Source: Burkholderia sp. TSV86
GTDB taxonomy: Bacteria > Pseudomonadota > Gammaproteobacteria > Burkholderiales > Burkholderiaceae
Direction of reading: 5' to 3'
DNA length: 64,000 nt
Assembly (NCBI RefSeq): GCF_001522865.1
Contig: NZ_LOWB01000033.1
Coordinates: 1 to 64,000, forward strand
Shown here: in pieces, positions 4,543 to 17,884 of the stretch
How positions within the stretch are numbered: the first letter of the stretch is position 1
Layout: each line of letters starts with the position of its first letter
Made by a program: the position numbers and the translations under genes
The notes under the pieces: generated by a model
Database searches by the model: none
What the model was told of the DNA's origin: nothing
The model's input: the letters and a program-made list of their open reading frames with translations, nothing else

Positions 4543-5727
4543 ATGAGCAACCTGCCTGGCGTGAACTTCATGCTCGGTGAAGACATCGAGATGCTGCGCG
4601 ATTCGGTCGCGCATTTCGCCGCGAAGGAAATCGCGCCGCGCGCGGCGGAAATCGATCGCACCGATCAGTTCCCGATGGATCTGTGGCGCAAGTTCGGCGA
4701 GCTTGGCGTGCTCGGGATGACGGTTGCCGAGGAGTACGGCGGCGCGAATCTCGGCTACACCGCGCACATGGTCGCGATGGAGGAAATCTCTCGCGCGTCG
4801 GCATCGGTCGGGCTGTCGTATGGCGCGCATTCGAACCTGTGCGTGAACCAGATCCACCGTAACGGCACCGACGCGCAAAAGCAGAAATATCTGCCGAAGC
4901 TAGTGTCGGGCGAGCATGTCGGCGCGCTCGCGATGAGCGAGCCGAACGCGGGATCGGACGTCGTCAGCATGAAGCTGCGTGCGGACCAGCGCGGCGATCG
5001 CTACGTGCTGAACGGCACGAAGATGTGGATCACGAACGGCCCGGACTGCGACACGCTCGTCGTCTACGCGAAGACCGAGCCCGACGCCGGCCCGCGCGGC
5101 ATCACCGCGTTCATCGTCGAGAAGGGCATGAAGGGTTTTTCGGTCGCGCAAAAGCTCGACAAGCTCGGCATGCGCGGCTCGCATACGGGCGAGCTGGTGT
5201 TTCAGGACGTCGAGGTGCCGGCCGAGAACATCCTCGGCGAGCTGAACGGCGGCGTGAAGGTGCTGATGAGCGGCCTCGACTACGAGCGGGCAGTGCTGGC
5301 GGGCGGCCCGACGGGCATCATGGCCGCCTGTCTCGACGCGGCGGTGCCGTACATCCACGATCGCAAGCAGTTCGGCCAGCCGATCGGCGAATTCCAGTTG
5401 ATCCAGGGCAAGATCGCCGATATGTACACGACCTTCCAAGCCTGCCGCGCGTATCTGTACGCGGTCGGGCGCCACCTCGATACGGCGTCGTCGGGCGGGC
5501 ATCTGCGCCAGGTGCGCAAGGATTGCGCGGGCGTGATCCTCTATACCGCGGAAAAGGCGACGTGGATGGCAGGTGAGGCGATCCAGATCCTCGGCGGCAA
5601 CGGCTACATCAACGAATATCCGGTTGGCCGCCTGTGGCGCGACGCGAAGCTCTACGAGATCGGCGCCGGCACCAGCGAGATCCGCCGGATGTTGATCGGC
5701 CGCGAGCTGTTCGCGCAAACGCTTTGA
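4543..5727 (+). CDS. liuA: Isovaleryl-CoA dehydrogenase
   Basis: A 394-residue acyl-CoA dehydrogenase that oxidises isovaleryl-CoA to 3-methylcrotonyl-CoA with FAD, passing electrons to ETF in leucine breakdown. Visible features are the N-terminal helical domain, the [18 protein letters not shown] flavin-binding stretch, [17 protein letters not shown], the C-terminal [22 protein letters not shown] signature and [16 protein letters not shown]. The catalytic base specific to isovaleryl-CoA dehydrogenases should be the Glu of [13 protein letters not shown] (E248), unlike the late Glu used in short/medium-chain enzymes. The RBS is GGAGGAG just upstream of ATG 4543. It is the first gene of liuABCD and ends 22 bases before liuB. 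Confidence 0.93.
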
Positions 5728-5749
5728 TTTCGTGCGCGGAGCCTACGCG

Positions 5750-7357
5750 ATGCCGATCATCGAATCCAAGTTGAACCCGCGCGCCGACGATTTCCGCGCG
5801 AACGCCGCCGCGCTCGAGGTGCTCGTCGCCGATCTGCGCGACAAGATCGAGCGGCTTGCGCAAGGCGGCGGGCAAGCCGCGCGCGACAAGCATCTGGCGC
5901 GCGGCAAGCTGCTGCCGCGCGAGCGGATTGCGCAACTGCTCGATCCGGGCACGCCGTTTCTCGAGCTGTCGCAACTGGCCGCATACGGGATGTATAACGA
6001 CGACGCGCCGGGCGCGGGCATCATCACCGGCATCGGCCGGATCGCGGGCCGCGAGTGCGTGATCGTCTGCAATGACGCCACGGTCAAGGGCGGCACCTAC
6101 TATCCGATGACCGTGAAGAAGCACGTGCGCGCGCAGGAGATCGCGGCCGAGAACCGGCTGCCGTGTGTCTATCTCGTCGATTCCGGCGGCGCGAACCTGC
6201 CCAACCAGGACGACGTGTTTCCCGATCGCGATCATTTCGGCCGGATCTTCTTCAATCAGGCGAATTTGTCGGCCGAAGGCATCGCGCAGATCGCGGTCGT
6301 GATGGGTTCGTGCACCGCGGGTGGCGCGTATGTGCCGGCGATGAGCGACGAGTCGATCATCGTGAAGAATCAAGGGACGATCTTCCTCGGCGGCCCGCCG
6401 CTGGTGAAGGCGGCCACTGGCGAGGAAGTCAGCGCGGAGGACCTTGGCGGCGGCGACGTGCATACGCGGCTATCGGGCGTCGCCGATCATCTCGCGCAGA
6501 ACGACGCGCATGCGCTCGCGATCGCGCGCGGCATCGTCGGCCATCTCGGCGCGCGTCCCCGGGGGCCGCTCGTTGCACGCGAGCCGCTGCCGCCGCGCTA
6601 CGACGCGAAGAGCCTGTACGGCGTGATTCCGGCCGATACGCGAAAGCCGTTCGACGTGCGCGAGGTGATCGCGCGGATCGTCGACGATTCCGCGTTCGAC
6701 GAATTCAAGGCGCGTTTCGGCACGACGCTCGTCACCGGTTTCGCGCACATCTGGGGCTATCCGGTCGGGATCGTCGCGAATAACGGCATTCTGTTCTCCG
6801 AGTCGGCGCTCAAGGGCGCGCATTTCATCGAACTGTGCTGCCAGCGCAAGATTCCGCTCGTATTCCTGCAGAACATCACCGGCTTCATGGTCGGCCGCAA
6901 ATATGAGAACGAAGGGATCGCGCGGCACGGCGCGAAGATGGTGACGGCGGTGTCCACCGCGCAGGTGCCGAAGTTCACGGTCATCATCGGCGGCTCGTTC
7001 GGCGCGGGCAATTACGGAATGTGCGGCCGCGCGTTCGGCCCGCGCTTTTTATGGATGTGGCCGAATGCGCGGATCTCGGTGATGGGCGGCGAGCAGGCCG
7101 CGTCGGTGCTCGCGACGGTGCGGCGTGACGGGATCGAAGCGAAGGGCGGCCAATGGTCGGCCGACGACGAAGAGGCGTTCAAGCAGCCGATTCGCGAGCA
7201 GTACGAGCGCCAGGGGCATCCGTACTATGCGAGCGCGCGCTTGTGGGACGACGGCGTGATCGATCCGGCGCAGACGCGCGACGTGCTCGGCCTGGGCCTT
7301 GCCGCGGCGATGAACGCGCCGATCGGCGAGACCCGCTTCGGCGTGTTCCGGATGTGA
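5750..7357 (+). CDS. liuB: 3-methylcrotonyl-CoA carboxylase, carboxyltransferase (beta) subunit
   Basis: About 535 residues from ATG 5750 ([15 protein letters not shown]); an upstream GTG at 5732 is less likely. It carries the crotonase-fold carboxyltransferase N and C domains. The N-half motif is [16 protein letters not shown] and the C-half has [15 protein letters not shown] and [17 protein letters not shown]. The subunit transfers CO2 from carboxybiotin on LiuD to the gamma carbon of 3-methylcrotonyl-CoA, giving 3-methylglutaconyl-CoA. The length and C-terminus (ETRFGVFRM) are typical of MCC beta rather than propionyl-CoA carboxylase. The biotin subunit liuD lies two genes downstream. Confidence 0.93.
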
Positions 7358-7361
7358 GGGC

Positions 7362-8153
7362 ATGGTCATGCGCTATGAAACGATCGAAGTGACCAACGGC
7401 GGCCGCGTCGCGACCGTCACGCTCGCACGCCCCGACGTGCGCAACGCGTTCAACGAAACAATGATCGCCGAGCTGACGGCCGTGTTTGAATGGCTCGATG
7501 CGCACGAAGGCGTGCGCGCGGTGGTGCTCGCGTCGCGCGGCCCGGCGTTTTGCGCGGGCGCGGATCTGAACTGGATGAAGAAGATGGCGGGCTTTTCCGA
7601 CGACGAGAACCGCGCGGATGCGCGCAAGCTCGCGCGGATGCTCGATGCGGTCTATCGCTGCGCGAAGCCCGTGATCGCGCGCGTGCACGGCGACGCCTAT
7701 GCGGGCGGAGTCGGCCTCGTCGCCGCGTCCGATATCGCGGTCGCGGCCGACGACGTGAAATTCTGCCTGTCGGAAGCGCGTCTCGGGCTGATTCCGGCGA
7801 CGATCGCGCCATACGTGGTGCGTGCGATCGGCGAGCGCGCCGCACGCCGTTATTTTGCGACCGCGGAGGTGTTCGATTGCGCGAAAGCCGAGCAGCTTGG
7901 CTTCGTCCACGAGCGCGTGCCGGCCAGCGCGCTTGACGAGACGGTCGCCAAGCTCGCCGATGCGCTGTGCGCGAACGGGCCGCAGGCGGTGCGCGCGTGC
8001 AAAACGCTGGTGCGCGACGTGGCGGGCCGCCCGCTGGATGCGGCGCTGATCGACGATACCGCCGAGCGCATCGCGCGCACGCGCGCCGGCGCGGAGGCGC
8101 GCGAAGGCGTCGCGTCGTTCCTCGAAAAGCGCGCGCCCGCGTGGCGCACGTGA
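7362..8153 (+). CDS. liuC: 3-methylglutaconyl-CoA hydratase (enoyl-CoA hydratase family)
   Basis: A 263-residue crotonase-superfamily protein following liuB by 4 bases. The oxyanion-hole segment SRGPAFCAGADLNWMKKM and the GDAYAGGVGLVAASDIAVAA segment are intact, as is the SEARLGLIPATIAPYV stretch typical of LiuC. It hydrates 3-methylglutaconyl-CoA to HMG-CoA. ATG 7362 and ATG 7368 are both possible starts (MVMRYE or MRYE). The operon position between the carboxylase subunits is the classic liuABCD order. Confidence 0.9.
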   Translation: MVMRYETIEVTNGGRVATVTLARPDVRNAFNETMIAELTAVFEWLDAHEGVRAVVLASRGPAFCAGADLNWMKKMAGFSDDENRADARKLARMLDAVYRCAKPVIARVHGDAYAGGVGLVAASDIAVAADDVKFCLSEARLGLIPATIAPYVVRAIGERAARRYFATAEVFDCAKAEQLGFVHERVPASALDETVAKLADALCANGPQAVRACKTLVRDVAGRPLDAALIDDTAERIARTRAGAEAREGVASFLEKRAPAWRT

Positions 8154-8170
8154 TCCGGCCGCCAAGGCAA

Positions 8171-8193
8171 TGCGCCGCCGCAGGCGCGGCGCA
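8171..8193. repeat. GC-rich hairpin in the liuC-liuD gap
   Basis: TGCGCCGC and GCGGCGCA (8-base perfect arms, 7-base loop) lie in the 156-base gap between liuC and liuD. No U-run follows, so it is not a canonical terminator. It could act as an mRNA stability or partial attenuation element. Confidence 0.45.
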
Positions 8194-8309
8194 CGCCGGA
8201 TGCCCGATGTCCGCGTTGGTCCGGCATCGGATACCGCGCGCCGCCGGATAGGCCAGCGCCAGCCTGCTGTAGACCAAACCCGTTACTTTCATCCATTCCC
8301 AGAGCCGCC

Positions 8310-10310
8310 ATGTTCGACAAGATCCTGATCGCCAACCGCGGAGAAATCGCGTGCCGGGTGGCCGCAACCTGCAAACGTCTCGGCATTGCCAGCGTCGCGG
8401 TTTATTCGGACGCCGATGTGCACGCGAAGCACGTCGCTGCATGTGACGAAGCTGTGCATATCGGCGGGGCGGCCGCGGCTGACAGTTATCTGCAAATCGC
8501 GCGCATCGTCGATGCCGCCCGGGCGACGGGCGCGCAGGCGATTCATCCGGGCTATGGCTTCCTGTCGGAGAATGAGGATTTCGCGCGCGCGTGCGCCGAA
8601 GCGGGGATCGTGTTCATTGGCCCGCCCATCGACGCGATCGCGGCGATGGGCTCGAAGGCTGCCGCGAAGGCGCTGATGCAGGCCGCGGCGGTGCCGCTCG
8701 TGCCCGGCTATCACGGAGACGATCAGGCAGCCGATTTGTTGCGGCGCGAAGCGGATCGGATCGGCTATCCGGTGCTGCTGAAGGCGAGCGCGGGCGGCGG
8801 CGGCAAGGGCATGCGGGTGGTCGAGCGAGCGGACGATTTTGCTGCGGCGCTCTTGTCGTGCCAGCGTGAAGCGGCCGCGAGCTTCGGCAACGATCGCGTG
8901 CTGATCGAAAAATATTTGCAACGCCCGCGCCACGTCGAGGTGCAGGTATTCGGCGATACGTTCGGCAATGCGGTTTATCTGTTCGATCGCGATTGTTCGG
9001 TGCAGCGCCGTCACCAGAAGGTGCTCGAGGAGGCGCCCGCACCGGGCCTGCCGGACAGCGTCCGGCAGGCGATGGGCGCGGCAGCGGTCGCGGCTGCGCG
9101 TGCGGTCGGCTATGTCGGCGCGGGCACCGTCGAATTCATCATGACGGGCGATACGTTCTACTTCATGGAAATGAACACGCGGCTGCAAGTCGAGCATCCG
9201 GTGACTGAAATGGTCACGGGGCTCGATCTCGTCGAATGGCAGCTGCGCGTCGCGGCGGGCGAGCCGCTGCCGTTGCAGCAGGCGCAGTTGCGCGTGCGCG
9301 GCCACGCGGTCGAAGCGCGGCTCTATGCGGAGAATCCCGTGCGTGGCTTCCTGCCGTCGACCGGCACGCTCAAGCATCTGCGACTGCCGGCGGGCGTGGA
9401 ATTTGCGCTCGGCGCGGCCGTGCGCATCGACAGCGGCGTGCGCGAGGGCGATGCGATCACGCCGTTTTACGATCCAATGATCGCGAAACTGATCGCGCAC
9501 GGCGAAACTCGTGCGCAGGCGTTGGCGACGCTTGTGCGCGCGCTGCGCGAATGCGAAGTCGTCGGCTTGCAGACGAATGCGGCGTTCCTGCAGCGCATCG
9601 TCGAGAGTCGGCCATTTGCCGACGCGGATCTCGACACGGGGCTGATCGAGCGTCATCGCGACGCGCTGCTCGCGCCGCGCGATGCGCCGGCTGCCGCGCT
9701 CGCGCTGGCCTGCGCGGCGCTGTTCGCGCGCGAGCAGGATGCGGCGCGGCGCGGCGAGCCCGTGTCGCCGTGGAGCGCGTTGTCGAGCTGGCGGCTCAAC
9801 GGCGGCTATACGCGCACGCTCGAATGGTGCGCGCTCGCCGACGACGCGGCGCTTGCCCTCCGCTACGCGCACGGCGATGGCGGACAAACGCTGCAGATCG
9901 ACGGCGTTGCCCAACCGTTCGTTTGGACGCGCGGCGCGGGCCCGCTCGATTTCGACGTGACGCTCGGCGGCGTGCGCACGGGCGGGCGTGTGTATGTCGA
10001 CGGCGACACGTTCCATGTGTTCTGCCAGGGCGTTGCATGCGCGTTCCAATGGCGCAACCTGCTCGAGCACGCGGCCGATTCGACCGACGGCGAGGGCCGC
10101 CTCACCGCGCCGATGCCGGGCAAAGTGATTGCGGTGCTCGTCGAGCCGGGGCAGAAGGTCGAGCAGGGCGATCCGCTGATCGTGATGGAAGCGATGAAAA
10201 TGGAACACACGATCGGCGCACCGGCGGCAGGCGTCGTCGGCGAAGTGTTATATGCGGTCGGTGATCAGGTCGCGGACGGCGCGCAGTTGTTGATTTTGGG
10301 CAAAGAGTGA
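8310..10310 (+). CDS. liuD: 3-methylcrotonyl-CoA carboxylase, biotin carboxylase/biotin carrier (alpha) subunit
   Basis: A 666-residue protein. The biotin carboxylase domain starts at MFDKILIANRGEIACRVAATC, with the ATP-grasp glycine loop KASAGGGGKGMRVV and the catalytic FMEMNTRLQVEHPVTEMVTG. A linker region follows, then a C-terminal biotinyl domain with VMEAMKMEHT, where K630 should be biotinylated. It carboxylates its own biotin with ATP and bicarbonate and works with LiuB. The gap to liuC is 156 bases and holds a hairpin, so expression may be partly uncoupled. The usual next gene, liuE (HMG-CoA lyase), is absent; a DUF2827 gene follows instead. Confidence 0.93.
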   Translation: MFDKILIANRGEIACRVAATCKRLGIASVAVYSDADVHAKHVAACDEAVHIGGAAAADSYLQIARIVDAARATGAQAIHPGYGFLSENEDFARACAEAGIVFIGPPIDAIAAMGSKAAAKALMQAAAVPLVPGYHGDDQAADLLRREADRIGYPVLLKASAGGGGKGMRVVERADDFAAALLSCQREAAASFGNDRVLIEKYLQRPRHVEVQVFGDTFGNAVYLFDRDCSVQRRHQKVLEEAPAPGLPDSVRQAMGAAAVAAARAVGYVGAGTVEFIMTGDTFYFMEMNTRLQVEHPVTEMVTGLDLVEWQLRVAAGEPLPLQQAQLRVRGHAVEARLYAENPVRGFLPSTGTLKHLRLPAGVEFALGAAVRIDSGVREGDAITPFYDPMIAKLIAHGETRAQALATLVRALRECEVVGLQTNAAFLQRIVESRPFADADLDTGLIERHRDALLAPRDAPAAALALACAALFAREQDAARRGEPVSPWSALSSWRLNGGYTRTLEWCALADDAALALRYAHGDGGQTLQIDGVAQPFVWTRGAGPLDFDVTLGGVRTGGRVYVDGDTFHVFCQGVACAFQWRNLLEHAADSTDGEGRLTAPMPGKVIAVLVEPGQKVEQGDPLIVMEAMKMEHTIGAPAAGVVGEVLYAVGDQVADGAQLLILGKE

Positions 10311-10468: not shown

Positions 10469-11614
10469 ATGACACCCCCTGTCGATTTAAATGGCTTGCG
10501 TATTGGCATCACAATCGGCCTGCGCGAGCCGAATGAGAGCCTGTGGATCAACGGCATCAAGCAAAATGCGCTGTTTTTAGCGAAATTGTTGATGAAATCG
10601 TCGCGCGGTTATCGCGTGACGCTCGTTAATACCACTAACGTTCCGCTCACCGATGCGCTGCCATGGGACCGCCGGATTTTCGGAACCCGTTCGTTTTCCG
10701 AAATGAAGGATTCGCTCGACGTACTAATCGAGCTTGGTGGCCAGATCGACGGCGAGCAGACTGCGTATTTGAAGGCGCGCGGCGTGAAAATCGTCAGTTA
10801 TTGCTGTGGCGTCGAATATATCAACGCGGTCGAATCGATTTTATTCGGCCGCCGAATGTGGGAATCACTCTTTATCAATCGTGGTTACGACGAGATTTGG
10901 GCGATTCCGCAGATCGCGCAATCGTCGTTGCCGTTTTTGCAGTCGTTGCGGCGTTGTCCAGCCCGCGTCGTGCCGTTCGTTTGGGATCCGATGTTTCTCG
11001 GCGAGCGCACGCGGCTTCTGGCCGGGAATGGCGAATACCAGCCGAGCGGCAAGCGGGCGAAGCGGCTGACGGTGATGGAGCCGAACTTCGACGTGGTCAA
11101 GTGCTGCATCTATCCGCTGCTCATCATCGACGAGGTTTATCGCCACGATCCTGATGCGATCGCATTTACGCATGTGACGAACGCCGATCGCCTCGCGCGC
11201 GAGAGCCCGGAATTCACGATGCTGATGAACTATCTGGAGATCGTGCGCGCGAGCAAGGCGAGCTTTGTCGGGCGCTACGACACGCCCACGTTCCTTGCCG
11301 AATACTCCGATGTCGTCGTATCGCACCAGTGGGAAAACCCGCTGAACTACTTCTACTTCGACGTTTGTTGGCAGGGCTACCCGCTTGTCCATAACGCGAG
11401 CCTTGCGCCTGATCTCGGCTATTACTATTCGGGCAACGACGTATCCGCGGGCGTCGACGCGCTGCTGCGCGCGCTGCGCGAGCACGACGACGACTGGGAG
11501 GGCTATACGGCGCGGCAGCGGGCGATCCTGCGGCGCTACACGTCGAAGAGCCCGGCGCTCGTTGCCGAATACGACACGCTGCTCGCGAATCTCGTCAACG
11601 ACAGAAACCGCTGA
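10469..11614 (+). CDS. DUF2827 family protein (putative glycosyltransferase), copy 1
   Basis: A 381-residue cytoplasmic protein with no signal peptide. It shares the family landmarks with the two minus-strand genes beyond it: an N-terminal GITIGLREPNESLWINGI segment, WDPMF, VMEPNFDVVKCCIYPLLI and VVSHQWENPLNYFYFDVCW followed by YPLVHN. The two-domain layout with a C-terminal conserved E-N-x-x-N-Y and late GYYY resembles GT-B glycosyltransferases, and DUF2827 proteins are generally regarded as glycosyltransferase-like. Activity is unproven. This copy is convergent with copy 2 and is the most divergent of the three. A short inverted repeat (11615-11622 with 11643-11650) lies after its stop. Confidence 0.85.
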   Translation: MTPPVDLNGLRIGITIGLREPNESLWINGIKQNALFLAKLLMKSSRGYRVTLVNTTNVPLTDALPWDRRIFGTRSFSEMKDSLDVLIELGGQIDGEQTAYLKARGVKIVSYCCGVEYINAVESILFGRRMWESLFINRGYDEIWAIPQIAQSSLPFLQSLRRCPARVVPFVWDPMFLGERTRLLAGNGEYQPSGKRAKRLTVMEPNFDVVKCCIYPLLIIDEVYRHDPDAIAFTHVTNADRLARESPEFTMLMNYLEIVRASKASFVGRYDTPTFLAEYSDVVVSHQWENPLNYFYFDVCWQGYPLVHNASLAPDLGYYYSGNDVSAGVDALLRALREHDDDWEGYTARQRAILRRYTSKSPALVAEYDTLLANLVNDRNR

Positions 11615-11696: not shown

Positions 11697-12848
11697 TTAT
11701 CGATATAGTGCGGCAAGTGCGTCGGTATAGACGGCGATGTTGTCGGCGTTGTAGATGCTGACCGAGTCGAGCAATACGCGCGCGTTTTCCCGGTACGCAT
11801 CGAGATGCGCATCGTGGTTGCGGAACGCGTCGATGAGCGCTCGGCCTCCGTGCTGGCAGTTGAAATCCGGGTAGTAGTAGCCGCATTTGCCGAGAAACGG
11901 CGAATTGTGGATCAGCGGATAGCTGCCGTACAACAGCTCGTAGTACAGATAATTTTGCGCGTTCTCCCACGTGTGCGAAACCACCGCGTCGCCATACGCG
12001 GCCATGAACTCATACACCGCGAAGCGTCCTTCGAACGTCGTGAGGCCATGCGTGACGATATCGAGATTCGTCGCGAATTTCACGAACGTTGCGTGCTCCT
12101 TCATATGCAGCGTGTTGCACACGCGCGCGTTTTCGAGAAACGACGGTTGCGCGCGATACGCTTCTTCGACGATCAGCATCGGGATCATGCTGGTCTTCAC
12201 CATGCAGATGTTCGGCTCGAAGATCGCAACGCGCCAGCGCGGCTTACCAGGTTGATAGCCGAATTCGAGGTGCGGGGCGAGCGTTGCGCGGGCCTTATCG
12301 AACAGCACCGGATGCCAGATGTGCGCAACGATCGTGACGGGCGAGCGCAACCCTGTCTCGAGATAGTGCCGGCACGAGCGCTCGAATTCGGGAATCGTCC
12401 AAACGCTGTCGTAGGCCGCACCCGAGAACAGGAAGCCGGGCGGCTTGTCGAACATCGCTCGCTCGATGTCGATCACATAATCGTTACCGACCCGCATCGT
12501 GACCACCTTGCCGCCGCTCGCGCGGAAATGCGCAATCCAGCTTGCGTCGAACTGTGCGCTCATCTCGATCAGCACGTCGCAGCGGGCGAGCGCTTCGTCC
12601 ATCGACCACAGCGGCACGTTCCATTCGTCGAGCATCATCTGAGGATCGGCCGCGTTGCTGCCGCCGCCGTTGACGAGCACCGCTTCGGCGACGAGCGGCG
12701 ACTGGCGCAACAGCAGCACCAGCAGCAGGCAGTTCTGGAAGATGCCATTTTCCCATAGCGATTGGCCGGCGCCACGAACGAACAGCGATACGCCGACGAT
12801 GACACGCTTGCTGCCGTCACGCACGCCGCGAGCGGTGGATTCGGACAT
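11697..12848 (-). CDS. DUF2827 family protein (putative glycosyltransferase), copy 2
   Basis: 383 residues from ATG 12848 (MSESTARGVRDGSKR), preceded by GGAG in CCCGGAGAAAAAAGC. Longer upstream frames lack family similarity. It carries GVSLFVRGAGQSLWENGI, WTIPEFERSCRHYLETGLRSP, IFEPNICMVKTSMIPMLIVEE, VVSHTWENAQNYLYYELLYG, PLIHNSPFLGKCGYYYPDF and a complete helical C-terminus. It lies 17 bases downstream of copy 3 on the same strand, so the two are almost certainly cotranscribed. The same run contains a lipoprotein and a trimeric autotransporter upstream. A role in glycosylating that Ser/Thr-rich adhesin is a context-based hypothesis. Confidence 0.87.
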   Translation of the reverse strand: MSESTARGVRDGSKRVIVGVSLFVRGAGQSLWENGIFQNCLLLVLLLRQSPLVAEAVLVNGGGSNAADPQMMLDEWNVPLWSMDEALARCDVLIEMSAQFDASWIAHFRASGGKVVTMRVGNDYVIDIERAMFDKPPGFLFSGAAYDSVWTIPEFERSCRHYLETGLRSPVTIVAHIWHPVLFDKARATLAPHLEFGYQPGKPRWRVAIFEPNICMVKTSMIPMLIVEEAYRAQPSFLENARVCNTLHMKEHATFVKFATNLDIVTHGLTTFEGRFAVYEFMAAYGDAVVSHTWENAQNYLYYELLYGSYPLIHNSPFLGKCGYYYPDFNCQHGGRALIDAFRNHDAHLDAYRENARVLLDSVSIYNADNIAVYTDALAALYR

Positions 12849-12865
12849 GCTTTTTTCTCCGGGAT

Positions 12866-13966
12866 TCAAGCTTTTGCAATCAGACGCATCACGAACGCAT
12901 CGACATTGCACGGATTGTCGATCGCGACATCGCGCAGCAACGCGTTGGCGAGTGCGCGGCCGCCGGCCGCCGAGTCGAAATCCGGGTAATAGTAGCCGGC
13001 GCCGTTGAGCAGCGGCGAATTGTGGATTAGCGGATAACCGCCGTACAACACGTCGTAGTACAGATAATTCTGCGAATTTTCCCAATGATGAGACACGACG
13101 GCATCCGCATGCGACGACAGGAACAACGGCAGATCGATCCGCGGCTCGAACGTGGCTTTGTGATCGCGAACCAGGTCAAGCGCGTTCGCGAAATGCACGA
13201 AGCTCGGATGCGACTTCATATGCATGGCGTTGACGACGAACATGTGCTGGACCGCGTCCGGTTGCGCGCGGTAGAACTCCTCGCATGCGAGCATTGGATA
13301 ATGGCAGCTTTTGACGACAGAGATGTTCGGTTCGAGGATCGCGAGCCGCCAAGGCCGCGGACCGGGACGATAGCCGTAGGTCAACCCTTCGGCCGCGAGT
13401 TGCGCGTTGCGGCGCTCGATGAAATACGAAGACCAGATGTGCGGCATCGTATGGACGGGAGCGCGCAATGAAGTGTGCAGCAGCGGTGCGCATGTCTTCT
13501 CCGATTTTTGCAGCACCCACACTTCATCGAAGCGTGCGCCGTTGAACACATGACCCGATGGCAGCCCGAAGAGCGGCGCCTCGCACAGCCCCGCATAAGT
13601 ATGGCCGACAAAGAATGCGACAAGCTTCTTGCCGAGCGCGCGCATATGGTTGAGCCAGCCGACGTCGAGCTGCGCGCCCATCTCGATCACGACATCGAGT
13701 TCGTGCGTGACGTCACGCGGATTGGCAAGCGCGATATCGAGGCCGCCGAAATCGAGTCCATCGGGTAGCCTGCTCGCGTCGCCGCCATTCAGGAAGTACA
13801 CCGGGCCGATCGCGTCCGATTGCTTGAGCAGCATCGCGAGAAACGCAATGTTTTGATGGATGCCGCTTTCCCAGATGGCCTGGCCGCCATGGGCAAACAG
13901 CGAGATGCCGACGGCCGGGCGTTTTTCGCGCCGTCCGGCGGACGATGAGGATGCTTGATCGATCAC
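12866..13966 (-). CDS. DUF2827 family protein (putative glycosyltransferase), copy 3, shortened C-terminus
   Basis: 366 residues, close paralogue of copy 2: GISLFAHGGQAIWESGI, WVLQKSEKTCAPLLHTSLRAP, ILEPNISVVKSCHYPMLACEE, VVSHHWENSQNYLYYDVLYG and PLIHNSPLLNGAGYYYPDF all align. After AGGRALANALL the sequence jumps directly to RDVAIDNPCNVDAF. Copy 2 has about 20 extra residues there (the HDAHLDAYRENARVLLDS helix). This looks like a small in-frame deletion near the end of the second domain. The gene starts 28 bases after the 72-codon frame upstream and 17 bases before copy 2. It may be less active than copy 2 or have altered specificity. Confidence 0.87.
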   Translation of the reverse strand: MIDQASSSSAGRREKRPAVGISLFAHGGQAIWESGIHQNIAFLAMLLKQSDAIGPVYFLNGGDASRLPDGLDFGGLDIALANPRDVTHELDVVIEMGAQLDVGWLNHMRALGKKLVAFFVGHTYAGLCEAPLFGLPSGHVFNGARFDEVWVLQKSEKTCAPLLHTSLRAPVHTMPHIWSSYFIERRNAQLAAEGLTYGYRPGPRPWRLAILEPNISVVKSCHYPMLACEEFYRAQPDAVQHMFVVNAMHMKSHPSFVHFANALDLVRDHKATFEPRIDLPLFLSSHADAVVSHHWENSQNYLYYDVLYGGYPLIHNSPLLNGAGYYYPDFDSAAGGRALANALLRDVAIDNPCNVDAFVMRLIAKA

Positions 13967-13994
13967 CGGCTATGTCCGTTTTCAGCATCGAACC

Positions 13995-14213
13995 TCATCG
14001 GTTGCCCAACGGGTCGATGCGCAGCTGATGAGTGAGCAACGCGGCCGGTGCGTTCGCGGTGCGCTCGAACGCGATCCGGAAGTCGGCCGGAATGCGGCTG
14101 GAGCGGGCTGGATACGCGATCCGGATCGCCGGGCCGAACGAATCGGCCTGCGGCAGATTGTGACATAGAAGCCCGCGCGCGATGCATCCGGCGATGTGCG
14201 TGCGGGTTTCCAT
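13995..14213 (-). CDS. Small hypothetical protein in the adhesin operon
   Basis: A 72-codon frame (METRTHIAGCIARGLL...) lying between the lipoprotein gene and DUF2827 copy 3 on the same strand, with gaps of 19 and 28 bases. Third codon positions are mostly G or C, as in real genes here, but there is no good RBS and no recognised domain. It could be a genuine small protein, the remnant of a longer gene, or chance. I do not assign a function. Confidence 0.35.
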   Translation of the reverse strand: METRTHIAGCIARGLLCHNLPQADSFGPAIRIAYPARSSRIPADFRIAFERTANAPAALLTHQLRIDPLGNR

Positions 14214-14232
14214 GCCGGTCACGGGCTGGCGG

Positions 14233-14553
14233 TCATGAACCCGGCGCCGACGAGGCGAGCGGCGTCGCAACGCATTCGAACGTAAGGCTCAATGGTTCGT
14301 CATGCTGACCGTTATCGCGGTAAGCGGCGTCGGCTGCAATCGTGTTGACTTGGCGATCGCCGCAGACGCGCGCGGCGACATTCGTGCAGATTGCGTTTTC
14401 TCCGAACAAGCCGCCACAGGAGACGCGGTACGCGTCCGGATGGTCGGGCAGACGGGTCTGCGTGATCGAGTAAGTCGGCCAACTCGATGCGGTGCATCCT
14501 GCCGCCGCGAGCGCCGCGAACGTGAGCGTGGTCCAAGTGATCTTCATCGTCAT
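14233..14553 (-). CDS. Small Cys-rich lipoprotein next to autotransporter
   Basis: 106 residues from ATG 14553 (MTMKITWTTLTFAAL); the longer frame prepends an unlikely 19 residues. The signal peptide ends in a lipobox LAAAGC-TAS. The residue after the lipid-modified Cys is Thr, not Asp, which predicts outer-membrane sorting. The mature part has four cysteines in the pattern YRVSCGG...AICTNVAARVCG...FEC, probably two disulfides. It starts 47 bases after the end of the trimeric autotransporter, on the same strand. Small lipoproteins linked to trimeric autotransporters (for example SadB beside SadA in enterobacteria) assist their export; an equivalent role here is inferred from position only. 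Confidence 0.75.
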   Translation of the reverse strand: MTMKITWTTLTFAALAAAGCTASSWPTYSITQTRLPDHPDAYRVSCGGLFGENAICTNVAARVCGDRQVNTIAADAAYRDNGQHDEPLSLTFECVATPLASSAPGS

Positions 14554-15278
14554 GTTTTCTCCAAATTGGCGCGGCGACGCAATGCGCTCGCCGCTGCGCG
14601 TTACTTCCATTGATAAAGCATGCCCGCGCCAAGCACTTTCTGACTGCCGCTGAGACCGCCATTCAGCGACGCCTTCAGGTTCTCGGTGAGCCGCGCCTGT
14701 ATGCCGAGCGCCATCGCCTTCTGGCCAAGGAACGTCGATGAGCCGACGCCCATCGCGAAATTCGAGTCGCGGTCCATATGCGGAATCGCCGCCATGGCCG
14801 CTACGGCCGCAATCCCTTGGCGTGCCATCGCATCGGTCTGCTGAAGCTGTTGCTGCTGTTGGTTGATCTGTGCGCCAAGAGTGTCGATCTGGGTCTGCTG
14901 ATTCGACAGCGATTGCGACATCGATGCCGACAACGCATTCAACTGGTTCAGGTTCACCGCATCGGTGCCTTCGGTGCCCGGCGCGACGTTCGTGATTTGT
15001 CGTTGCTGCGTGGCGCTGCCGACCGACACCACGTTTGAGCGGCCCGCATCATTCGAATTCGCGCCGATCGCGACCGAGTTCGAGCCGGCGGTGACGGAGG
15101 GCGCGGCGGTGGACGGCGCGCTCATGTCGGCCGCGATGCCGGTGCTCGCGGGCAGCGAGTGGATCACGTTTTCCGTGATCGATGTTGATAGCGACGTGAT
15201 CTGCGTATTGATGTTCGTTACGCTCGTCGATAGCGAGGCGACCGAGGTGTTGGTGTTCGACAGGCTGGTCGATAGTGA

Positions 15279-15503
15279 GCCGAGGCCGGTCGAGGCCGAC
15301 GTGGACAGCGACGCAAGATTGCTGTTGGTCGTCGACAGCCCGGTGGACAGCGAGCCGATGCTCGTCGAAGTCGACGTGGACAGCGACGCGAGATTGCTAT
15401 TGGTTGCCGACAGCCCGGTGGACAGCGAACCGACCGCGGTCGACGTTGACGTGGACAGCGACGCCAGGTTGCTGTTCGTTGTGTTCAGCCCTGTCGACAA
15501 TGA
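15279..15503 (-). repeat. Three 75-bp tandem repeats in the second adhesin stalk
   Basis: Units 15429-15503, 15354-15428 and 15279-15353 each encode a 25-residue module of the form SLSTGLS-x-TNSNLA followed by SLSTSTST-x-x-G. They are in frame and extend the stalk. Such repeats can expand or contract by recombination and so tune adhesin length. Confidence 0.8.
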
Positions 15504-16378
15504 TACGACGGTGCTGTTGGTCGCATAGAGCTGGCTGCCGTTGATCGCGTCCGTGCTGACCTTCGCAATCCTGCCGGCCGCGACGTTCGTGATTTGCCGC
15601 TCGGCGCCCGGTGTGCCGACGCTGAACACGCCGACAGGGTTGCTGCCTGCAAAACCGCCGAACGTCAATCCCCCGATGGCCACCGACGGCACGGCGACGG
15701 CGGCCGACGTCGTCGCGCCATTGCCGATCGCGATCGAGTCGGCAATGTTAGCGATCGCGTTCGGACCGATCGCCACGCTGTTCGCGCCGGCCGCGATGCT
15801 GTCGGGCAGGGTCGAGTTCTCATGGAAGTACTTGATACCTTTTGCGTTGATGCTGTCGATCGCGTTGCCGACGCTGTGACTCACGCTCGTCGTGCCGTCG
15901 CTGTTGTACGTGACGTACGACGGCGCGGAAACCGCACGTTTGCCACGGAGTTCGCGCCAAGTGCGACCGAGTTATTGATGCTGGCCACCGCGCCGGTGCC
16001 GATGGCGATGGCGTTCACGCCGGTTGCGATGCTGTCCGTACCTGCCGAGTTGGCGTGAAAGTACTTGATGCCCTTTGCATTGATGTTGTCGAGTGCGTTG
16101 CCGACGCTGTGATTTGCGGTGGTCGTGCCATTGTCGTTGTACGTGACAAACGACGGCGCGGAGATCGTGCCCGTGGCAACGTTGTACACAGCGCCGCCGC
16201 CGAGAGCGGCGGCGGCGCTGTTGCCGAGGTTGCCGGCCGTTGACGCGACACTCGACAGTCCGGTGGACAACGAGCCGATGCCGATCGATGTGGAGGTCGA
16301 AAGAGACGCCATCGAGCTGTTTGCGGAGGCCAGGCCGGTGGAAAGCGAGTTGACCCCGCTCTGGGCGGCGTTGATTCC

Positions 16379-16738
16379 CGTCGAGGCCGAAGTTGATAAC
16401 GATGTTAATAAATTCTTAGTTGTACTAAGCCCAGTGGACAGCGAAAAAACGTTGCCGTTGGCTGTAGAGAGTCCGCTGGAAAGCGATGCGATGTTGCTGT
16501 TGGCGGTGCCTAGGCCGGTGGAAAGCGAATTGACTCCGCTTTGAGCCGTATTGATTCCAGTCGAGGCCGAGATTGATAAAGATGTTAGTAAATTATTAGT
16601 TGTACTAAGTCCAGTGGATAGCGAAAAAACGTTGCCATGGACCGTCGATAGCCCGCTGGAAAGCGAAGCGATATTGCTGCTGGCCGCGCCGAGGCCGGTG
16701 GAAAGGGAGTTGACGCTGGCCTGAGCCGTACCGATTCC
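16379..16738 (-). repeat. Two 180-bp tandem repeats in the first adhesin stalk
   Basis: Units 16559-16738 and 16379-16558 encode a 60-residue block that begins GI-x-TAQ-x-x-VNSLSTGL and consists of four SLSTGLS-like submodules of 14 residues plus a linker. A third partial copy starts at 16378 and diverges after about 25 residues. The submodules resemble those of the 75-bp repeats downstream, so both arrays probably derive from one ancestral 14-residue unit. Confidence 0.8.
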
Positions 16739-17884
16739 GGTTGACGCGGAAGTCGACAGACTTGCAATGTTGGCTGCGGTCGTCTTCATGCCGGTGCTCA
16801 ATTGCGCGACCGTCGCTGCGTCTTGCGGAGCGGCGCCGTCGGCGACGTTTGTGATGCGGCGCAGGTTCGTCGCACTGCCAACCGATACTTCGGACAGCGG
16901 CGCGGCCGTTGCGGTCAGGTAGCCGGAAAGAGTGGGCGCTTGGGGGCCAGTCGTGCTGCCTTGGCCGATCGCTACGCTGTTCGCGTATAAAGCGGTGCTT
17001 GAAGGGCCGATTGCTGTCGCGCCTGCCGCATTCGCATTCGCTTGGGTGCCGATCGCGGTTGCGCTTGCGCCGTTCGCGGTGGTTCGATTGCCCAGCGCGA
17101 GCGCATTCGCGCTGTTCGCCGCCACCGTTGCGCTATTGCCCATTGCAACGCCATTCGTGCTTGTCGCGCCGACCGTCGCACCGAGCCCGATCGCTACGCC
17201 CGATTGTGCCGCAGCGCTGGATTGTCCTCCGAGCGCAATCGCATCTTGCGCGGTCGCTTGTGCTCCTTTCGTTGCATTGCTGCCGATAGCAATCGATCCC
17301 GCACCGGAGGCGAGCGTTGAGTTTGCCGCTGACAGCGCAGTCGTGCCGTTGCCGCCGGCACCACCGATCGCGACGGAGTTCAGCGCGCTTGCGATGCTGC
17401 CGAAGCCGACCGCGGTTGCCGCAGTGCCGCTCGCATTCGCTTCGAGACCGGCCGCAGTTCCCCATAGGGCCGCCGAGCTGAGAAAGCCGGTGGCGGTGCC
17501 GCCGTTGCCCGTTACCTGCGCGAATACGCCATAGACGGTTGCCGCGAGCTGGTTGTTGCCGCTCGAATTGCAGCCGCTGATGGTCGAATACGTACCCGAG
17601 CCGTCGACAGGATAGGCATTCGTGTTGCCCGTAACCGTCCGGCCGACGGTCGCTGTGCCACTACCGGACGTGCAGGTCGCGTGCGTGAGTTCTCCGGTGG
17701 ACGAGATTTCGTTGGGAATATAGACGTCGGCGCTCGCAAGCGATGGTACTCCGGCCAGCAGTGCCACGATCGTCGTGACGATGACGGGAGATTTGTTCGG
17801 TTTGCCGCGCGCCGAATCAAGTTCCGATGTGGCAACCCATGCGCCGAGCGCTTCGTTCCAAATGGAGCGGTATGAGCGATTCAT

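Follow-up and report, generated by a model that had tools for sequence, protein, structure and literature searches.

BAHT enzymes, which form an iron-containing dodecamer, transfer heptose to serine and threonine residues, and in the accessory Sec system of Gram-positive bacteria two related proteins, GtfA and GtfB, jointly start the O-glycosylation of serine-rich repeats that further enzymes then extend. EmaA, a trimeric autotransporter adhesin (TAA) of Aggregatibacter, is modified through the O-antigen pathway and is not known to have a linked dedicated enzyme. Here we compare such systems with a locus of Burkholderia sp. TSV86 (Pseudomonadota; Burkholderiaceae) in which genes of the family DUF2827 (PF10933) adjoin a TAA gene, within a 64,000-nucleotide stretch of DNA (contig NZ_LOWB01000033.1, positions 1 to 64,000) hereafter called the window. 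From sequence comparison, we interpret this locus as part of a dedicated, probably cytoplasmic modification system for adhesins whose stalks carry the repeated motif SLST, most likely acting by O-glycosylation, a reading that we favour with moderate confidence. A review of type V proteins describes, in its passages on the subject, two cytoplasmic glycosylation mechanisms, NGT and BAHT (PMC8151025). According to the same passages, the BAHT-SAAT pairs (TibC-TibA and AAH-AIDA-I) involve, like the system proposed here, a dedicated cytoplasmic enzyme and O-modification of many serine and threonine sites before export (PMC8151025), but the SAAT acceptor is a beta-helix whereas a trimeric coiled-coil stalk is found at DUF2827 loci, and DUF2827 loci combine a tandem pair with members of further classes. 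Membership of DUF2827 in the BAHT family was rejected since there is no Pfam Glyco_transf_9 match. NGT/HMW1C with its adhesin HMW1A is described as linked, dedicated, cytoplasmic and adhesin-specific (PMC8151025, in part), as we propose for DUF2827; by contrast, DUF2827 has no glycosyltransferase match in Pfam, where only DUF2827 itself matched at meaningful E-values, so that membership in this family was rejected as well, and its co-occurring motif is SLST. The relevant passage of the review lists EmaA as a TAA reported to be N-glycosylated (PMC8151025).

The motif itself has been noticed before. SLST repeats are reported in the adhesins BoaA, BoaB and BMA1027 (PMC2955633, PMC4021183), and O-glycosylation has been speculated for the Ser/Thr-rich repeats of BCAM2418 (PMC7142374); these four adhesins share SLST or Ser/Thr repeats with the TAAs discussed here, and the passages concerned name no enzyme and make no mention of DUF2827. 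In the literature searched, the family appears in one paper, where a table row lists it under 'uronic acid pathway' (PMC12828279). Our literature search, which left subscription journals mostly outside, found no paper linking DUF2827 to adhesins or glycosylation, and none that connects the widespread pair of DUF2827 and SLST-stalk TAAs. What is new relative to this literature is a probable acceptor motif, SLST, for DUF2827.

A first-pass annotation of the window had proposed an operon in which a TAA gene, a small lipoprotein, a 72-codon frame and two DUF2827 genes would make, export and modify one adhesin. Rechecking the coordinates reproduced exactly its minus-strand order (TAA, lipoprotein, 72-codon frame, DUF2827-A, DUF2827-B) and all four gaps, which measure 47, 19, 28 and 17 bases from the TAA to DUF2827-B, and also bore out a third, convergent DUF2827 gene at 10469. 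The features are as follows:

15881..17884, minus strand: first piece of the TAA, with extended signal peptide (ESPR), YadA-head repeats and the initial SLST stalk (9 SLST by count; Pfam ESPR 3.1e-12, YadA_head 5.4e-16)
14601..15884 (stop 14601-14603), minus strand: second piece of the TAA, in a different frame, with a stalk containing 9 SLST, YadA_stalk and the YadA membrane anchor (Pfam YadA_stalk 1.4e-21, YadA_anchor 8.1e-15)
14233..14553 (ATG at 14553), minus strand: TAA-companion lipoprotein of 106 aa, N-terminal domain only (lipobox-type Cys at residue 20; alignment)
13995..14213, minus strand: 72-codon frame, probably not a gene (frame broken in the sole close homologue compared)
12866..13966, minus strand: DUF2827-A, class A, first of the tandem pair, GTG start (Pfam DUF2827 1.8e-143)
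11697..12848, minus strand: DUF2827-B, class B, second of the tandem pair (Pfam DUF2827 2.7e-155)
10469..11614, plus strand: DUF2827-C, class C, convergent (Pfam DUF2827 3.4e-145)

DUF2827 genes are both linked to and co-distributed with the candidate acceptor, the SLST stalk. Within the family, 86 of 299 genomes (11 of 25 genera) have them; across the phylum 6 of 398 genomes do, and all six also carry a YadA anchor, itself present in 58 of the 398. A 111-residue stretch of stalk from the second adhesin piece, searched against the same 299 family genomes (E 1e-6 or better), matched 71 of them: 69 have both DUF2827 and the stalk, 17 DUF2827 only, 2 the stalk only, and 211 neither. Among the 183 genomes with a YadA anchor, the stalk was matched in 69 of 83 with DUF2827 versus 2 of 100 without. 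A pooled Fisher p-value for such counts is not to be taken at face value because the genomes are related; within the nine genera that hold both states, eight point in the same direction, one is a tie and none is opposite (sign test p = 0.008). The association was also followed adhesin by adhesin, in 78 stretches around YadA anchors from 14 of 28 genomes plus the TSV86 genome, extended by 40 stretches from genomes with and without DUF2827 and by short loci from the phylum search, which after removal of duplicates gave 152 TAAs of at least 300 aa (three shorter ones were left out). At least 1 SLST per 100 residues was found in 22 of the 23 TAAs lying within 8 kb of DUF2827 (the remaining one has 0.75), in 14 of 74 from DUF2827 genomes that were not seen within this distance, and in none of 55 from 51 DUF2827-less genomes (maximum 0.1), 23 of these 55 being visible only as their last 393-561 residues. 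All 14 SLST-rich TAAs among the 129 outside the 8-kb zone thus belong to DUF2827-bearing genomes. The link between DUF2827 and adhesins therefore stands, whereas the idea of a unit modifying a single adhesin was too narrow, given the 14 of 74 distant TAAs that are SLST-rich.

Linkage was studied in loci from one scan of named genome contigs, which yielded 261 relatives, the best 80 of which were retained. They come from Burkholderia, Paraburkholderia, Caballeronia, Ralstonia, Cupriavidus, Polaromonas, Variovorax, Collimonas, Glaciimonas, Hydromonas, Frateuria, the bee symbiont Snodgrassella and some metagenome-assembled genomes (MAGs), two of which, of Verrucomicrobia type, are possible outliers. 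All 80 loci contain at least two same-strand DUF2827 genes no more than 1.5 kb apart. By FastTree classification, classes A and B are each present in 80/80 loci, C in 61/80 and D in 27/80; since the loci were picked by similarity to class B, what is informative is that class A is always there. Upstream of the DUF2827 genes, 56 of the 80 loci have a YadA anchor on the same strand, 54 of them within 1.3 kb; in 2 such an anchor is downstream, and several Caballeronia loci have the TAA downstream, not upstream. The first-pass annotation had stated that the lack of a conserved association of DUF2827 with autotransporters elsewhere would speak against it; these tandem pairs and upstream anchors show that the association exists. 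Sugar-type genes also neighbour DUF2827, encoding UDP-galactopyranose mutase (GLF), a GT7C-type protein, GT34 (lowest E 5e-10) and an FkbM methyltransferase whose GT9 region stays below cut-off; 26/80 loci have one of the kinds tested, in a few only as a short piece.

The stalk as a candidate acceptor, previously put forward in terms of general Ser/Thr repeats, can now be sharpened to the specific repeated motif SLST. In the 80-locus set, 52 of the 57 TAAs with at least 200 residues visible have 1 or more SLST per 100 residues and 54 have 0.5 or more, and one TAA has 234 SLST in its visible part versus about 8 predicted from composition. The spacing between copies is mostly 18, 14, 11, 7 or 25 residues, that is, heptad or hendecad steps. 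The motif is kept at the protein level, since the 18 copies of the window use 14 different codon combinations. Among 4-mers at most one position off SLST in 67 SLST-rich TAAs, Ser fills the third position in 99.2%; the fourth is Thr in 91.5% and Ser in 6.9%, and the first is Ser in 74.9% and Gly in 21.0%. Such strict Ser/Thr beside a core-like Leu exceeds what a coiled coil needs and fits an acceptor site, with a structural cause also possible.

The DUF2827 proteins of the window match their own profile with 478-517 bits (cut-off 25). DUF2827-A, -B and -C are probably cytoplasmic, as none has an evident N-terminal signal sequence. Invariant charged residues are distributed along the chain (D91, E95, E129, R168, E211 and K218 in the numbering of window B). 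In hhalign comparisons bearing on a GT-B (GT4-like) assignment, the C-terminal conserved block of DUF2827 falls on the donor domain of Glycos_transf_1 with a score of 25-26, compared with at most 13.3 for 60 column shuffles; against a pooled alignment of Glycos_transf_1 and Glyco_trans_1_2 the score is 13. The comparison with Glyco_transf_9 (BAHT, GT9-like) gave a probability of 0.1%, a miss that says little because the known pair Glycos_transf_1/Glyco_transf_9 was missed too. An NCBIfam search gave nothing meaningful for DUF2827. An anti-phage or phage role was considered and rejected, with no PADLOC or PHROGs match.

From all this we infer an enzymatic activity with sugar chemistry, its cytoplasmic place and timing, and an order of action, as follows. 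DUF2827 proteins would do their work on the TAA stalk while it is still in the cytoplasm, ahead of export. A and B, as a pair, would attach an initial group (most likely a sugar) to the Ser/Thr residues of [S/G]LST motifs standing in a fixed register within the coiled-coil stalk. DUF2827-C would then extend or vary this initial group, a role that may be played elsewhere by DUF2827-D, GT34-like or GT9-like proteins, FkbM methyltransferase or UDP-galactopyranose mutase. The modified chain would be exported by Sec through its ESPR and anchored via its own barrel, with the lipoprotein supporting the TAA anchor. We give even chances to the more specific proposal that DUF2827 constitutes, besides NGTs and BAHTs, a third class of cytoplasmic autotransporter-modifying glycosyltransferase, whose obligate A-B pair starts O-glycosylation at the coiled-coil sequon [S/G]LST. 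If true, this would account for both the role of DUF2827 and the SLST-repeat make-up of many Burkholderia adhesins, add a third cytoplasmic modification route to type V secretion, and supply a short acceptor motif useful in glycoengineering; the question of the adhesin stalk becomes directly testable by mass spectrometry.

Several observations weigh against this interpretation. The first-pass annotation held that DUF2827 proteins look like glycosyltransferases, a resemblance that did not emerge as any significant profile match: a PDB sequence search returned nothing, a Pfam search returned only DUF2827 itself at meaningful scores, and two of the 25 control families for hhalign, which were clusters of proteins encoded next to DUF2827 in the 80 loci, outscored Glycos_transf_1 with 27 to 30, one a 650-residue protein that looks unrelated to carbohydrates and the other an FkbM/GT9-like neighbour family. 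DUF2827-B is hydrophobic over one 19-residue stretch near residue 41 (mean 1.94, versus at most 1.3 in A and C), so that contact of this protein with the membrane is possible. On the best TAA anchor tree the SLST label changes 9 to 10 times, and supported branches provide three independent pairs, of which on average 2.5 show no difference in DUF2827; with so few independent supported pairs, nominal p-values overstate the evidence. Two genomes (G065 and G153) match the SLST stalk and lack DUF2827, which was not found in G065 even by a 31-sequence profile search and gave only a meaningless match in G153 (E 0.14). The SLST frame of G065 (L352, C30, 8593-11196) has an apparent OmpA-like end, and its neighbours, FkbM-like and TPR-type genes, have relatives at DUF2827 loci. 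Conversely, 14 TAA-bearing genomes have DUF2827 and no match to the stalk query; two of them, G063 and G154, were examined. G154, scored as stalk-negative, does hold TAAs with 20 and 36 SLST, and G063, scored as DUF2827-positive, has a match to 58 DUF2827 positions only, a single weak TAA match and no SLST match, an apparent loss of the locus. Finally, no anchor is visible in 21 of the 80 loci, including all six from Collimonas; a few of these 21 had little upstream sequence to inspect, and in three (L080, L081 and L095) an SLST-rich frame begins downstream and extends past the end of the locus.

The same co-distribution and gene order would also arise if DUF2827 proteins were non-enzymatic cytoplasmic chaperones or export-targeting factors that hold SLST stalks unfolded until secretion, a role compatible with their having no enzyme family match and with the holding that long repetitive stalks plausibly need. 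The presence of two to four diverged paralogue classes side by side, the spread of invariant charged residues along the chain and the sugar-type neighbour genes suggest catalysis instead, and we regard a chaperone role as unlikely. The heptad/hendecad register of SLST and the few independent supported transitions would likewise suit a purely structural repeat travelling with the TAA operon by descent or horizontal transfer, with DUF2827 acting elsewhere, for example on a surface polysaccharide that the nearby sugar enzymes could make. It is nevertheless quite improbable that SLST is only structural, considering that the SLST-rich TAAs outside the 8-kb zone all occur in DUF2827 genomes, that the Ser/Thr after Leu is nearly invariant, more strictly than a coiled coil requires, and that the within-genus contrasts agree in 8/9 genera. 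As nothing in the sequence fixes the donor, DUF2827 might also place a non-sugar group (phosphate, phosphoform or acyl) on SLST stalks; the sugar-type neighbours argue against it, as does the fact that both cytoplasmic type V modifications in the passages of the review cited above are glycosylations (PMC8151025), and we give this a very small chance. We regard a dedicated modification system for SLST stalks as likely and glycosylation as its best-guess chemistry.

A second cluster exists in the same genome, a draft of 5.82 Mb in 135 contigs. A whole-genome search detected six DUF2827 genes, split evenly between the window and contig C39. Of the six YadA anchors it detected, one is in the window, four are on C39 and one is on C116, the last with no DUF2827 in the surrounding 17 kb examined. 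The C39 cluster (1-40000; L014, L007, L015) encodes four TAAs, two of them SLST-rich, DUF2827 A, B and C, an OmpA-tailed relative of the window lipoprotein, a TPR protein, UDP-galactopyranose mutase, a Methyltransf_24 protein and an RgpF-like protein scoring below its cut-off. The A-B-C set therefore occurs twice in this genome, both times beside TAAs. A transposase-like frame lies at the edge of the C39 contig, and the cluster is followed by what are presumably type III secretion-like genes.

The window copy of the locus may be decaying, because its TAA is split, a repeat stretch is missing and DUF2827-A carries a deletion. All TAA domain types (YadA_anchor, stalk, heads and signal peptide) were confirmed by Pfam, as expected for the trimeric autotransporter gene initially annotated, but they are divided between two reading frames and the copy is broken, not a single open frame. 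In the nearest relative, one uninterrupted frame of 1301 residues matches both pieces when they are searched separately, the first at residues 1-653 (91%) and the second at residues 876-1301 (95%), so that the TSV86 copy lacks a stretch of repeats at the point where its frame breaks. Repeat collapse in the draft assembly is a possible source of the split, and intact copies are found elsewhere. Among named organisms, the closest relative identified is Burkholderia singularis, in which DUF2827-B has 97% protein identity and the locus 92-94% DNA identity along its two long aligned stretches. Compared with locus L017, the window DUF2827-A has a 17-residue in-frame deletion, and its Pfam match covers only positions 1-326 of 362. 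The 72-codon frame, counted as an operon member in the first-pass annotation, is probably no gene. It has no Pfam match, and among the loci compared a clear homologue occurs only in the near relative (L017 and L112, one and the same stretch), where the interval measures 258 bp versus 271 bp in the window and its two matching parts are in different frames; as the reading frame is broken in this sole close homologue, the frame was rejected as a gene. Terminator-like sites in the region number 9 versus a mean of 10.6 in shuffles, which argues neither for nor against cotranscription.

The lipoprotein, which likewise has no Pfam match, had been assigned to the dedicated modification unit and turns out to be a general TAA companion. 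Its relatives (78 matches in 77 of the 202 stretches searched) also stand beside TAAs of DUF2827-less genomes, for which reason it was rejected as part of the modification system. A C-terminal OmpA-like tail was recognized by motif in 67 of the 78 and is absent from the window copy; on the TpgA model (cut-off 350), the C39 relative reaches 26 bits, via its OmpA part only. TpgA (with AtaA) and SadB (with SadA) are likewise envelope proteins encoded beside a TAA, and TpgA has, behind an N-terminal TAA-binding domain, a peptidoglycan-binding OmpA domain of the type seen in most relatives of the window lipoprotein, whereas the window copy lacks it. The most plausible reading of the protein is a TpgA-like companion of the anchor, shortened in the window. 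Bioinformatic analyses, in the part of the source bearing on this, suggest TAA-TpgA-like pairs in Burkholderia among others (PMC13082670).

Other small proteins recur at DUF2827 loci. A small exported DUF4019 protein is found between or beside the DUF2827 genes in 24 of the 80 loci (L065:11182-11649 and relatives), and other small, mostly exported-looking proteins adjoin DUF2827 in Collimonas, Polaromonas, Variovorax and Cupriavidus (L056, L074, L067 and L085). The DUF2827 pairs on Verrucomicrobia-type MAG contigs (L064:6524-8476 and L091) may reflect binning errors; in L064, a Ser/Thr-rich frame with LST repeats and no recognised YadA anchor lies directly upstream of the pair. Leucine/isovalerate degradation genes, which we take to be of the liu type, flank the locus at window positions 4543-10310 and likewise in other Burkholderia (L018, L021 and L041). 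The remnant DUF2827 gene of G063 (L353, C50:9384-9704), the only DUF2827 match in that genome, is on a contig that also carries leucine-degradation genes. The shared degradation-gene flank suggests an old, stable site.

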